A DNA stretch of 64,000 nt from Spirochaetes bacterium ADurb.Bin133. GTDB taxonomy: Bacteria > Spirochaetota > GWE2-31-10 > MWDO01. The stretch spans positions 1 to 64,000 of the forward strand of contig MWDO01000007.1 in NCBI GenBank assembly GCA_002070605.1. Reading direction: 5' to 3'. The notes below the pieces were generated by a model. The model made no database searches and was not told the origin of the DNA. It worked only from the letters and a program-made list of their open reading frames with translations. Below are positions 41,883-46,591 of the stretch, piece by piece (positions within the stretch are counted from its first letter, which is position 1; every line of letters begins with the position of its first letter). Made by a program: the position numbers and the translations under genes.

Positions 41883-42266
41883 TTTTAATATTTTGATTTT
41901 TATTGACAAGTTATTAACAATAAAATTATTTTTGTTAATAAATGAATTTCATTAAAATATTTTCAACAAAATAAATATCTTTGTAACTTGTTATAGTATA
42001 ATGAGATATGCTTAATTTTTAGAACCGATGTAAAATTCGTAATATTCTAAACGAAAAATGCTATATTTCAATAGTTATTAACAAGTTATTCACATAATAT
42101 TTTATTTGTAGAAAATTAATTATTAATAATATTAATACGTCGTTTTTTTATTATATATCGTAACGCTGAAAAAAAATTATTATAAATGAGTAATATTCAT
42201 CAGTTTTGTTTCTCAAAATAAGAAAAATGTTTTATAATTGCTTTATCACATCTATGGAGTTGCATA
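41883..42266. other. AT-rich non-coding region with DnaA-box-like sites
   Basis: A 384-nt gap with no open frame. It holds TTATTAACA at 41911-41919 and 42075-42083, its inverse TGTTAATAA at 41933-41941, and TTATTCACA at 42086-42094, one mismatch from the E. coli DnaA box TTATCCACA. The last two sites are 11 bp apart. The gpsA promoter must also lie here. Whether this is a regulatory DnaA cluster, an origin or chance in AT-rich DNA is open. Confidence 0.4.
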
Positions 42267-43271
42267 ATGTCAAAAAATAAAATAACCGTATTGGGCGCCG
42301 GATCGTGGGGAACCACGCTGGCTATTCTACTTACTCAAAAATTTGACGTAACCGTTTGGGAATTTGATAAAGCCGCCGCGGAAGTTCTAAAAACCGAAAG
42401 AACCAATAAAAAATTTTTACCCGGAATTATTTTCCCGGAAAATTTGTCTGTAACAAACGATTTGAGCGAGGCGGTAAAAGACGCGGCGTTAGTAACGTTT
42501 GCCGTTCCGTCGTTTGCCGTCAGAAGTTTATGCGAAAACGTAAAAAACTTCATAAACAAAGACCAAATCCTTGTAACTGTTATAAAAGGATTGGAAGACG
42601 TAACGTTTCTAAGAATGTCGCAGATTATTGACTCGATAATTCCTAATAAGAGAGGGGTCGTAGCTTTATCGGGACCGACGCACGCCGAAGAGGTCGCCAG
42701 AGGAATTCCCTCGACGATTGTCGCCGCCTGCCCCGATTTGTCTCTAGCCGAAGAGGTTCAAAAAGCGTTTATGACAGACTCGTTTAGAGTTTATACTAAC
42801 GAAGATATAATAGGCGTTGAAATTGCGGCGGCTTCTAAAAACGTTATAGCGATAGTAGCCGGTATTTCCGACGGTATAGGTTTTGGCGACAATACAAAGG
42901 CGGCTCTCATTACAAGAGGTCTCGCAGAAATCATCAGACTGGGCAAAAAAGTAAACGCTCTGGAAAAAACCTTTTCGGGACTTGCGGGCATCGGAGATCT
43001 GATAGTTACCTGTCAATCAAAACATTCAAGAAACAGATACGTCGGCGAAGAGCTTGGCAAAGGCAAATCGATCGACGAAATTATCGGTTCTATGACGATG
43101 GTGGCCGAAGGGGTAAAAAACTGCAAATCTATATTACATTTTGCGCAAAAATTTGACGTCGAAATGCCTCTTACGGAAGAACTTTATAGAATAATATATG
43201 AAAAGGCCGATCTGAAAGATTCGCTTAAAAGACTGCTTGGAAGAAAAGAGAAATATGAACACTGGGAATAA
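42267..43271 (+). CDS. gpsA: NAD(P)+-dependent glycerol-3-phosphate dehydrogenase
   Basis: 334 residues. N-terminal Rossmann loop VLGAGSWGTTLAILL, the substrate-site VALSGPTHAEEVARG, the catalytic-Lys region IAAASKNVIAIVAGISDG, and SGLAGIGDLIVTC-like FSGLAGIGDLIVTC identify GpsA. It reduces dihydroxyacetone phosphate to sn-glycerol 3-phosphate for phospholipid synthesis. The 3' end overlaps the next gene by 17 nt, so the two are co-transcribed. Confidence 0.97.
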   Translation: MSKNKITVLGAGSWGTTLAILLTQKFDVTVWEFDKAAAEVLKTERTNKKFLPGIIFPENLSVTNDLSEAVKDAALVTFAVPSFAVRSLCENVKNFINKDQILVTVIKGLEDVTFLRMSQIIDSIIPNKRGVVALSGPTHAEEVARGIPSTIVAACPDLSLAEEVQKAFMTDSFRVYTNEDIIGVEIAAASKNVIAIVAGISDGIGFGDNTKAALITRGLAEIIRLGKKVNALEKTFSGLAGIGDLIVTCQSKHSRNRYVGEELGKGKSIDEIIGSMTMVAEGVKNCKSILHFAQKFDVEMPLTEELYRIIYEKADLKDSLKRLLGRKEKYEHWE

Positions 43272-45015
43272 CAAAAAAAAATTCTACACAATCGGAGAAG
43301 TATCCGATATAACCGGGGTAAAACCGAGCGTATTGAGGTTTTGGGAGGAGGAGTTTGAAGAGTTATCCCCCGCTAAAACTAAATTTGGGCATAGGGCTTA
43401 CTCCAAAAGTAATATAGATCTGATTATTACTATAAAAAAGCTGTTATACGAAGAAAAATTTACAATAAAAGGGGCAAAATCTTATCTTAAAAAAAATAAA
43501 TCCGAAGTTGATTTAAAAATTATCAAAGATAAACTCATGGACGTTTTATCAATTTTAAAAGAGAACGATAACATTACGGAGGGAGCTAATATGAAGAACG
43601 ATTCAAACAAGAACCTTAACGAAGATGAATTTATCAATGCAATTAAAAATACGGGAAACGGCGACGTTTTCTATTTCTGGAACGAGCTAAGTCCAAACGA
43701 TAAAAAGAAACTTATTGGGGATCTGCAATCGATAGATTTTACTCAAATAGACGATTTTTACCAAAATTCTTATCTCAATAGAAAGAAGGAAGATGTACTA
43801 TTTGAGCCTACCGATTATTTATCGGTAAACGAAAGAGACGCTTCGTTAAAAAACATCGGAGTAGATTCGCTATTGAAAGGGGAGGTCGCGATACTTACTG
43901 TCGCCGGCGGTCAGGCGTCGCGGCTTGATTACGACTATCCAAAAGGTTGTTATCCGATATCGCCGGTAAAACGTAAATCTTTATTTCAGATTTTTGCAGA
44001 AAAAATTTATTTTTACTCAAAATTTTATAAGTCGGACCTTACTTGGCTGATTATGACCAGCGAATATAACTATTCCGAAACTGTGAAATTTTTTGAAGAA
44101 AACGATTATTTTAATTTATCAAAAGATAAAATTCTTTTTTTCAAACAAGGGGCGCTTCCGACTATTACTACCGACAACAAGTTAATACTAAAAGATAAAA
44201 TGGAAATTTATAAAAATCCCGACGGTCACGGCGGTATTTTAACCGCGTTATTAAAAACCGGACTTTTGGCGGAACTTAAATCAAAAAACGTTAAATATAT
44301 ATCGTATTTTCAAGTCGATAATCCTTTAGTAGATATGGCCGATCCATACTTTATCGGTTATCATATAAAGAATAATTTTGAAGTAACTACAAAAGTTATT
44401 AAAAAACTTTATCCCGGGGAGAAATTGGGCTCTATCGGCAAAAAGAACGGAGTAAACGGCGTTATTGAATACTCCGATATGCCCGACGAATTGGCGAACC
44501 AAAAAAAGGAGAACGGCGAACTAAAATATCTTATGGGATCGATCGGCATACATATATTCAATACCGAGTTTTTAATTAATTTCACCGAGAAACTTCCGGT
44601 TCACGCCGCTTTAAAAAAAGTCGACGGCTATAAAAAAGATCAAAACGGGAATTTTGTTTTGTCCGAATTAGATGCTATCAAATTTGAAACGTTTGTGTTC
44701 GACTCAATTACTTTAGCCCGGAGAAGCGGCTTTTTTGAAACGGAGAGAGCCGAAGAGTTTTATCCTCTTAAAAATAAGACGGGATTGGATTCGATAGAAA
44801 CTTGCATATCGGGTCAAAAAGAGGCTTTTAGAGGTTGGTTGATTAAGTCGGGTATTATCGACGAAGCGGCGACAGTTAATAATATTGAAATCAGCCCGCT
44901 TTTTGCTCCTACTAAAGAGATTTTTCTTGAAAAATATTCGCTTTCATCCGATAAATTAAAGAGCAAAGTTTTTAATAAAGATGGAAGTCTGAAAGATGAA
45001 ATTTATATCGAATAG
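43255..45015 (+). CDS. MerR-like DNA-binding domain fused to UDPGP-family UDP-sugar pyrophosphorylase
   Basis: About 586 residues from ATG 43255 (in-frame TTG at 43237 is an alternative). Residues about 8-80 are a MerR-type winged helix (FYTIGEVSDITGVKPSVLRF, KFGHRAYSKSNIDLI), followed by a short linker. From about residue 113 the protein is an eukaryote-like UTP-sugar pyrophosphorylase: VAILTVAGGQASRLDYDYPKG carries the nucleotide loop, then GHGGILTAL and SYFQVDNPLV. It should make UDP-glucose or UDP-GlcNAc from UTP and the sugar 1-phosphate. An internal ATG (43591) with its own GGAGGGAG could also give the enzyme alone. Both neighbours overlap it, which supports one operon with gpsA. Confidence 0.85.
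   Translation: MNTGNNKKKFYTIGEVSDITGVKPSVLRFWEEEFEELSPAKTKFGHRAYSKSNIDLIITIKKLLYEEKFTIKGAKSYLKKNKSEVDLKIIKDKLMDVLSILKENDNITEGANMKNDSNKNLNEDEFINAIKNTGNGDVFYFWNELSPNDKKKLIGDLQSIDFTQIDDFYQNSYLNRKKEDVLFEPTDYLSVNERDASLKNIGVDSLLKGEVAILTVAGGQASRLDYDYPKGCYPISPVKRKSLFQIFAEKIYFYSKFYKSDLTWLIMTSEYNYSETVKFFEENDYFNLSKDKILFFKQGALPTITTDNKLILKDKMEIYKNPDGHGGILTALLKTGLLAELKSKNVKYISYFQVDNPLVDMADPYFIGYHIKNNFEVTTKVIKKLYPGEKLGSIGKKNGVNGVIEYSDMPDELANQKKENGELKYLMGSIGIHIFNTEFLINFTEKLPVHAALKKVDGYKKDQNGNFVLSELDAIKFETFVFDSITLARRSGFFETERAEEFYPLKNKTGLDSIETCISGQKEAFRGWLIKSGIIDEAATVNNIEISPLFAPTKEIFLEKYSLSSDKLKSKVFNKDGSLKDEIYIE
43578..43593 (+). promoter_or_regulatory. Internal ribosome-binding site and start in the MerR-pyrophosphorylase gene
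   Basis: GGAGGGAG at 43578-43585 lies 5 nt before the in-frame ATG 43591-43593, exactly at the boundary between the MerR domain and the enzyme domain. It would give a 474-residue stand-alone pyrophosphorylase. Confidence 0.6.
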
Positions 45016-46591
45016 CAAAAGTCTGTTTTTTTTATCGTTTATCGTATTATACGGCGCTAATTCTTTTTACGCCGCCGTTTATACGGAGTCCGTAGTAAAT
45101 CGCAAGCTTTTTTTTAACGAAACGTATCAGGATTGGGAGAGATACGTTGGAAAAGAGGTGTTGTATAAAGATAATAAGTCGGGCTTAAAATGTTTGAACT
45201 CGCCGCCAAAATATATTTTGAAAAGCGAATTCAATTCGTTAATTAACAAACTCTCCTCAAGCGACAAGTCTCTGGTATTAAAATATTACGGCGAAGACTC
45301 CAAATATTTTATTATGAAAGACCTTACGGATATGAAAATTATCAAACAGATTGATAAGATTTTTGAAGGCGTTGATTATACTAAGCGCGATTATATAATG
45401 TTTTTCTTTAATATTAACCCTGAAAGTAAAAAAATATCTTATTTCGGCAGTATTTACTACAGATTCGATTGCGCTAAGGAGTTAGTTGAGAGTAAAGTAT
45501 TCTTTCACGACTCCAATTTGTCTTACCTCCAGTTTGATATAACTAAAGAGAATAAATTCGACCTATATTTATTTGGCAAGTTGTATCGAAAAAATCTTAA
45601 CTATTACTTCCCTTTGGATTCTCTCAAATATATAAGTTTCTCCTCAATAAACTCATTATTGTCGGAAAATAGAATTTCTGATGAAATTCTTATAACCAAA
45701 GACGATTCTGTGATAAAAAATAAGTTTATTGAAAAAGTTATTACCCCTTCGCTAAATCCAAATTACTATAAGGACGGGGCGCTCAATCAGTTTGGCGAAT
45801 ACGTAAATATATCGGACGGTAAAATCCAAACCGGCAAATCTCCCGGCATAAATTGTAGCGGTTTTGTGAAAGAGATAACGGATAATCTTATAAGATTAAA
45901 AGATCCAAAATTTAAACGGTTAACCGTCGAAGAATGTAAAGAAAAGAGATACGAGGATAGAAAAGATAATTCATATGCGGCTTACGACGACGATCTTGAT
46001 CCTTTTTTTGGCGTAGATTGGACAAAAAATTTAGTCGATCGTATAAATTACCATTATGATTACAAAATTATTAAAGCCGAGGCGGTAAACAAAGATAAAT
46101 ATTCGCAATACTTTGAAGAGAGCGGTTACTATTTTAAAGATATGCAAGAGATAATATTTAGAGATCAGCAAAAAGATTCCTCTTATTTTTATTTTATCGT
46201 TTTTAATAAACTTAGGAATACAAAACCGATGATACCGACCTTTTATCATATAGCCGCGGTCGTTCCTGTCTTTACGGCAAATAAATTTGAACTTAAAATT
46301 TACGAAAGCGGAGCAGAAACAAGTTACGTCAATATACTAAAGAGAATGATTCCGAAGAATATAAGTTACAATAGATTTAATAAAGATATTATTAATAAGC
46401 TTACTAATCAAGATGAAATAGATCTGGTAAAAAAAGCGTTTAAATTAACAAATTACTCTTACTTTATCGATAAGACTCTAACCGATAACGAGATAGGCAG
46501 AATAAGAAATATTTTTGACAATATTGATTTTGAAAAAGAAAAAGCGGCGATTTATAAAATACCTATTCCTATAAACTATATAAATAAATAG
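44996..46591 (+). CDS. Exported protein with NlpC/P60-like cysteine motif
   Basis: 531 residues, ATG overlapping the upstream gene by 20 nt. An N-terminal signal peptide (LFFLSFIVLYGANSFYAA) leads to a long region with no recognised domain. At about residues 280-300 the sequence PGINCSGFVKEI resembles the catalytic NCSGFV of NlpC/P60 peptidases, and a later PTFYHIAAVVPVF could supply the histidine. If so, it is a periplasmic peptidoglycan endopeptidase-like protein. The large insert between these motifs is unusual. It is the last gene before the convergent boundary at 46.6 kb. Confidence 0.5.
   Translation: MKFISNSKSLFFLSFIVLYGANSFYAAVYTESVVNRKLFFNETYQDWERYVGKEVLYKDNKSGLKCLNSPPKYILKSEFNSLINKLSSSDKSLVLKYYGEDSKYFIMKDLTDMKIIKQIDKIFEGVDYTKRDYIMFFFNINPESKKISYFGSIYYRFDCAKELVESKVFFHDSNLSYLQFDITKENKFDLYLFGKLYRKNLNYYFPLDSLKYISFSSINSLLSENRISDEILITKDDSVIKNKFIEKVITPSLNPNYYKDGALNQFGEYVNISDGKIQTGKSPGINCSGFVKEITDNLIRLKDPKFKRLTVEECKEKRYEDRKDNSYAAYDDDLDPFFGVDWTKNLVDRINYHYDYKIIKAEAVNKDKYSQYFEESGYYFKDMQEIIFRDQQKDSSYFYFIVFNKLRNTKPMIPTFYHIAAVVPVFTANKFELKIYESGAETSYVNILKRMIPKNISYNRFNKDIINKLTNQDEIDLVKKAFKLTNYSYFIDKTLTDNEIGRIRNIFDNIDFEKEKAAIYKIPIPINYINK

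Follow-up and report, generated by a model that had tools for sequence, protein, structure and literature searches.

The fused gene and its two domains

In the window, meaning the whole 64,000-nucleotide stretch of DNA that was analysed, positions 43255 to 45015 translate as a single open frame of 586 amino acids without an internal stop. This frame joins a MerR-type regulator to a pyrophosphorylase of the UDPGP family and overlaps gpsA at its start and a gene for a 531-residue protein at its end. The features of the locus are as follows.

42210..42238, + strand, promoter-like site TTCTCA-17-TATAAT upstream of gpsA, a weak hit in a consensus scan and a candidate operon promoter
42267..43271, + strand, gpsA, NAD(P)H-dependent glycerol-3-phosphate dehydrogenase (Pfam/NCBIfam), its end overlapping the fused gene by 17 nt
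43255..45015, + strand, fused gene for a MerR regulator and a UAP1-type UDP-GlcNAc pyrophosphorylase, 586 aa (translation, Pfam, relatives, AlphaFold)
43285..43491, + strand, MerR winged-helix DNA-binding domain, residues 11-79 (Pfam MerR_1, 6.1e-19; pLDDT ~90-96; dN/dS 0.059)
43513..43569, + strand, MerR C-terminal helix, residues 87-105 (AlphaFold helix; matches the C-termini of stand-alone MerRs)
43564..43614, + strand, linker, residues 104-120, predicted to be disordered (pLDDT < 50)
43591..45015, + strand, UAP1-type pyrophosphorylase, 474 aa if translated from the internal start (Pfam UDPGP, 4e-32; PDB 8yp3, 6e-71; Foldseek, 9.8e-44)
44996..46591, + strand, downstream gene, 531 aa, overlapping the fused gene by 20 nt, with relatives at the corresponding position in most genomes of the order

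Residues 11-79 match Pfam MerR_1 (PF13411) at 1.1e-17 in the full protein and at 6.1e-19 when residues 1-111 are searched alone (64-68 bits against a cut-off of 21.6), and residues 206-507 match Pfam UDPGP (PF01704) at 6.9e-32 in the full protein. The AlphaFold model (38 sequences; mean pLDDT 90.8) contains two confident folds, with the UAP1 fold beginning at about residue 123, and between MerR and enzyme lies a linker of ~17 residues (104-120) with pLDDT below 50. A reading made from the sequence alone had placed a MerR winged helix at residues 8-80, in frame with a UDPGP enzyme from about residue 113; Pfam and the open frame agree with it, and the in-frame fusion is real.

The C-terminal helix of the MerR family is an antiparallel dimerization helix. 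Like short MerR regulators of the CarH/MlrA/HspR/GlnR-TnrA type, the fused protein has a complete MerR_1 domain and a C-terminal helix, but it differs from them in carrying no known MerR effector domain, its C-terminal partner being an enzyme. It falls far below all NCBIfam equivalog cut-offs. The MerR half, complete in the model with its predicted dimerization helix, probably still binds DNA as a dimer.

Identity and predicted function of the enzyme half

The nearest solved structures are all UAP1-type, with 8yp3 at 6e-71 and the fungal and human enzymes at ~1e-62. UAP1 entries range from 6e-71 to 2e-38, and UDP-glucose and UDP-sugar enzymes (USP/UGP) reach 4e-8 or weaker. A Foldseek search with the model also returned UAP1 (9.8e-44). 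Judged by these matches, the enzyme is a member of the UAP1 (UDP-N-acetylglucosamine pyrophosphorylase) subfamily. With eukaryotic UAP1/AGX1 (A. fumigatus UAP1, PDB 4bma/6g9v; Spodoptera frugiperda, 8yp3) it shares ~31% identity over the whole enzyme, the same fold (TMt ~0.83) and all mapped catalytic residues; it differs in its N-terminal MerR domain, in PDGHGG for PDGNGG and in an Asp for Gly after RL. Two catalytic features can be placed on the DNA.

43906..43947, + strand, nucleotide-binding loop GGQASRLDYDYPKG, residues 218-231, with R223 and K230 (mapped to AfUAP1 R141 and K148)
44770..44772, + strand, codon of K506, the counterpart of AfUAP1 Lys437 (mapping to AfUAP1)

The key residues of Aspergillus fumigatus UAP1 (AfUAP1) are Arg141, Lys148, Tyr330, Lys383 and Lys437, the last of which is essential (PMC8386105). 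All are kept in the fused protein (R141 as R223, K148 as K230, Y330 as Y406, Lys383 as K454 and K437 as K506). In the nucleotide loop Asp225 replaces Gly143 (RLD for RLG), a change found among the relatives only in the source genome (G000), the second species of its genus (G001) and one same-family genome (G002). At the sugar site His325 replaces Asn249, the common state among the spirochaete relatives compared; GlcNAc-1-phosphate is the predicted substrate, though this Asn-to-His change in PDGNGG may bear on sugar specificity. The source genome has one UDPGP gene, and no GlmU turned up in any of the order's nine genomes, either above the cut-off or at 1e-30, so the fused enzyme is likely to be the chief route to UDP-GlcNAc, an activity that both of the products proposed below probably have through their enzyme half.

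Distribution and origin of the fusion

Among 41 genomes searched, an uninterrupted fused frame also occurs in G001 (locus L002; 88% identity), the other of the two species in the genus, and in G005 (locus L004; 55% identity), which belongs to another family of the order. The G001 locus matches contig JAGOCL010000067.1 of a MAG labeled 'Spirochaetes bacterium isolate Go_SlDig_bin_318'. An artefact of sequencing or assembly, by which a stop between two genes had been deleted, could be suspected in a draft of 103 contigs, the more so as G002 and G003, from the same family, carry merR and the enzyme as two genes. The sequence-only reading had named a stop codon or frameshift between the two parts in close relatives as the mark of such an error or of a very recent fusion without function, and this pattern holds for G002 and G003 but not for the same-genus G001, which is fused. 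G001 has the same open frame on an independent contig, and a 500-base alignment of the two loci contains many substitutions and only one gap, of 3 bases. The dN/dS values between the two species are 0.059 for the winged helix, 0.20 for the MerR helix, 0.23 for the linker and 0.11 for the enzyme, low enough to point to purifying selection on the two parts as well as on the frame. The second species thus rules out an artefact for all practical purposes, and the presence of the fusion in a same-genus relative points to a lineage-specific event rather than a sequencing error.

Nine genomes of the order were examined, all multi-contig drafts, and gpsA, merR and the enzyme gene are consecutive in every one. 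The same fusion and its unfused counterparts, both of which the sequence-only reading had proposed to look for, occur side by side in it, with three fused genomes and six in which merR and the enzyme gene are separate (G002, G003, G004, G006, G007 and G008). The merR stop overlaps the enzyme start as ATGA in G003, G004, G006, G007 and G008. In G002 (L102:600-720) the two genes share one frame, split by a single TAA that is followed by a TTG start with a Shine-Dalgarno (SD) sequence; this border is either one substitution away from a fusion or the product of a recent split. The fused genes keep the ATGA, with its ATG now in the merR frame, and a short indel where merR ends would therefore explain the fusion. 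On the enzyme tree the fusions cost two changes, and a single fused clade is weakly rejected (AU p 0.026); the gpsA tree is compatible with a single fused clade (p 0.31); between the two trees, the history may be two fusions or one early fusion with later splits.

The fusion is not widespread in the phylum: only three of 393 genomes carry it, all from this order, and no further case was found among them. Long enzyme frames in G169, G206, G185 and G071 were considered as other fusions and rejected, as they hold no second Pfam domain. The UAP1-type enzymes of G169 and G206 (L076:2200-4509 and L077:1774-3972) lie in frames of 733-770 aa, and their ~300 upstream residues, which match no Pfam family, may be a real extension or merely open frame.

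The short MerR type is itself present in many genomes of the phylum. In the neighborhoods examined its gene often follows der (engA), plsY or gpsA, and the genes after it vary: G009 has aroQ there, G025 an Rsm22-like gene, and G374 and G013 relatives of the 531-aa gene. The twelve enzyme neighborhoods examined outside the order contained no MerR match, which together with these other MerR neighbors rules out a general MerR-UAP partnership there. As far as seen, the pairing is limited to the order, and this favors operon proximity followed by fusion over an old regulatory link.

An internal start signal at the domain border

The border between the two domains reads ACGGAGGGAGCTAATATG and contains two elements of a translation start.

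43578..43585, + strand, internal SD GGAGGGAG, 5 nt before the ATG (-10.0 kcal/mol; kept in G001, locus L002)
43591..43594, + strand, ATGA, internal in-frame start, whose +1-frame TGA sits at the merR stop position of most unfused relatives

The strength of the internal SD was taken as its duplex energy with the anti-SD and compared with that at 298 further in-frame ATGs, each 80 codons or more within an open frame, the 64-kb window being the only background. Just one of the 298 reaches its value (-10.0 kcal/mol, against a mean of -2.3), so the site is no chance occurrence. The SD that had been reported 5 nt before an in-frame ATG at the border is confirmed, and it is stronger than those of nearly all internal ATGs. 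An SD is found at the enzyme start in all nine genomes of the order (-5.8 to -10.0 kcal/mol); it is strongest in G000 and G001 and weakest in G005, which is also fused. The ATG at 43591 is the homologue of the codon at which the separate enzyme gene begins in six related genomes, and both fused lineages retain the internal SD and ATG. Because every one of the nine enzyme genes has an SD at this homologous start, we take the internal ribosome site to be the retained ancestral start of the enzyme.

The account that we favor, and hold to be rather probable, is a lineage-specific fusion in a compact operon, with two products likely. Overlapping merR and uap genes, mostly joined at ATGA inside a gpsA-merR-uap-(531-aa gene) operon, would have been the starting point. 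A short insertion or deletion where merR ends would then have brought the frames into register and removed the stop, with the enzyme's own SD and ATG staying in place. Dual translation would yield two proteins, the MerR-UAP chimera of 586 aa and the enzyme alone, of ~474 aa. In the chimera the MerR half would be tied to the enzyme by a flexible linker, with DNA binding and enzyme activity both predicted; the account makes no claim of metabolite sensing. Judged from the sequence, two products are likely. Of the earlier suggestion that two proteins may come from one gene, the internal start is now strengthened as the ancestral enzyme start, and the dual products stand as a plausible prediction.

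The chimera might instead be the single product, which we think possible but distinctly less probable; the internal SD and ATG would then be a fossil start or be constrained by the amino acids that they encode, and the MerR part would function unchanged, carrying the enzyme as a passenger. The internal SD does also code for conserved amino acids, so that its conservation is no independent proof of use, and the synonymous conservation over codons 96-112 (14 of 15 against 77% overall) is not significant with two species. Ribosomes on the chimera would moreover run over the internal start, and the weakness of the SD in the other fused lineage, G005, also weighs against two products. In the unfused genes translation of the enzyme can couple to the merR stop; since the fused gene lacks that terminating ribosome, separate enzyme would have to arise by de novo initiation. 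Counting against a single product, the SD exceeds those of nearly all internal ATGs and persists with its ATG in two fused lineages. In-frame N-terminal proteoform pairs are documented in bacteria, and those of Salmonella and E. coli likewise have two in-frame starts per gene (PMC11005335); the fused gene differs in that its internal start descends from that of a once-separate gene and that dual expression is predicted.

Operon neighbors and the upstream region

The overlap of gpsA and merR at 43255-43271 is out of frame, spans 17 nt (YEHWE-stop / MNxGN) and is kept in most of the order. Searches of the 531-aa downstream protein against Pfam and NCBIfam gave no match; by eye, it has a signal-peptide-like start and an NCSGFV motif that recalls NlpC/P60 enzymes. 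In other spirochaete families relatives of this gene directly adjoin MerR (L096, L100), an arrangement that could reflect insertion of the enzyme gene between the two.

The operators of MerR-family regulators are dyads, as a rule within promoters whose spacer measures 19-20 bp. No convincing conserved dyad was found upstream of gpsA, a region that is AT-rich; the block TTTTGTTTCTCAAAATAA.AAAAATGTTTTATAATTGC in this region is conserved in G001, weak evidence for the promoter-like site. The MerR targets may lie elsewhere than in its own operon. A repeated TTATTAACA upstream of gpsA was considered as a MerR operator and rejected, as it looks like DnaA boxes instead. Five DnaA-box-like 9-mers (TTATNNACA) lie at 41900-42094, between a YifB-like gene and gpsA, and among them are two tandem pairs 11 bp apart (TTATTNACAAGTTATTNACA), the only matches to this tandem pattern (≤1 mismatch) in the source genome. 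G001 and G004 each have one tandem pair upstream of gpsA, and G008 has two just upstream of dnaA. The repeats are possibly an origin, a DnaA titration site or a site of DnaA operon control; the GC skew across the window runs from + to -, which is ill-suited to an origin.

Discussion

The sequence-only reading had gone further and proposed that the enzyme, tethered to a promoter, senses UTP or sugar-1-phosphate. In its full form such a trigger enzyme, which we consider unlikely, would bind UTP, GlcNAc-1P or UDP-GlcNAc on its enzyme half and thereby alter DNA binding at its own or other promoters, so that UDP-GlcNAc supply feeds back on transcription. A trigger enzyme unites a DNA-binding domain and an active enzyme in one polypeptide; in the fused protein both domains are there and look intact in sequence and model, with activity predicted. 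Both halves are conserved, AfUAP1 shows large conformational changes in catalysis (PMC8386105), and feedback-type fusions of this kind exist in BirA (PMC6391492) and BzdR (PMC3602430). BirA, a biotin ligase and repressor, also unites a DNA-binding domain with a metabolic enzyme in one polypeptide (PMC6391492), but the domain and enzyme are others, and regulation has been shown for BirA whereas for the MerR-UAP fusion it would be hypothetical. BzdR, in which a linker joins a DNA-binding domain to a shikimate-kinase-like fold, is a pure sensor whose enzyme domain has lost activity (PMC3602430), whereas the catalytic residues of the fused protein are intact.

Against a trigger enzyme stand the flexible linker, the failure to find an operator upstream of the operon and the variety of genes (aroQ, Rsm22-like or others) beside MerR elsewhere in the phylum. 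Six of the order's nine genomes, moreover, encode the two proteins separately, so the system can function untethered. No part of the analysis lent specific support to promoter-tethered sensing, and direct metabolite sensing stands as a reasonable hypothesis. A combined form strikes us as a long shot: one gene with two products, whose MerR regulator, covalently tied to the cell's UDP-GlcNAc pyrophosphorylase, would set transcription of wall- or membrane-precursor genes according to the ligand occupancy of the enzyme, with the internal start supplying free enzyme independently.

Searches of the open-access literature, including those by way of MerR joined to other enzymes and of bacterial UAP1, returned no description of a MerR-UAP fusion. 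Fusions of enzymes with DNA-binding domains are already known, PutA and NadR being further examples, and MerR-UAP is a new, lineage-restricted combination. Its interest lies in the early and readable stage at which the fusion stands, with overlapping genes, an in-frame pair split by a single TAA and fused genes with the old start all found in one small order. Should both proteins be produced and the chimera bind DNA, the locus would offer a natural test of the way in which enzymes gain DNA-binding domains, and of whether the supply of UDP-GlcNAc, a key step in wall synthesis, can directly control transcription.
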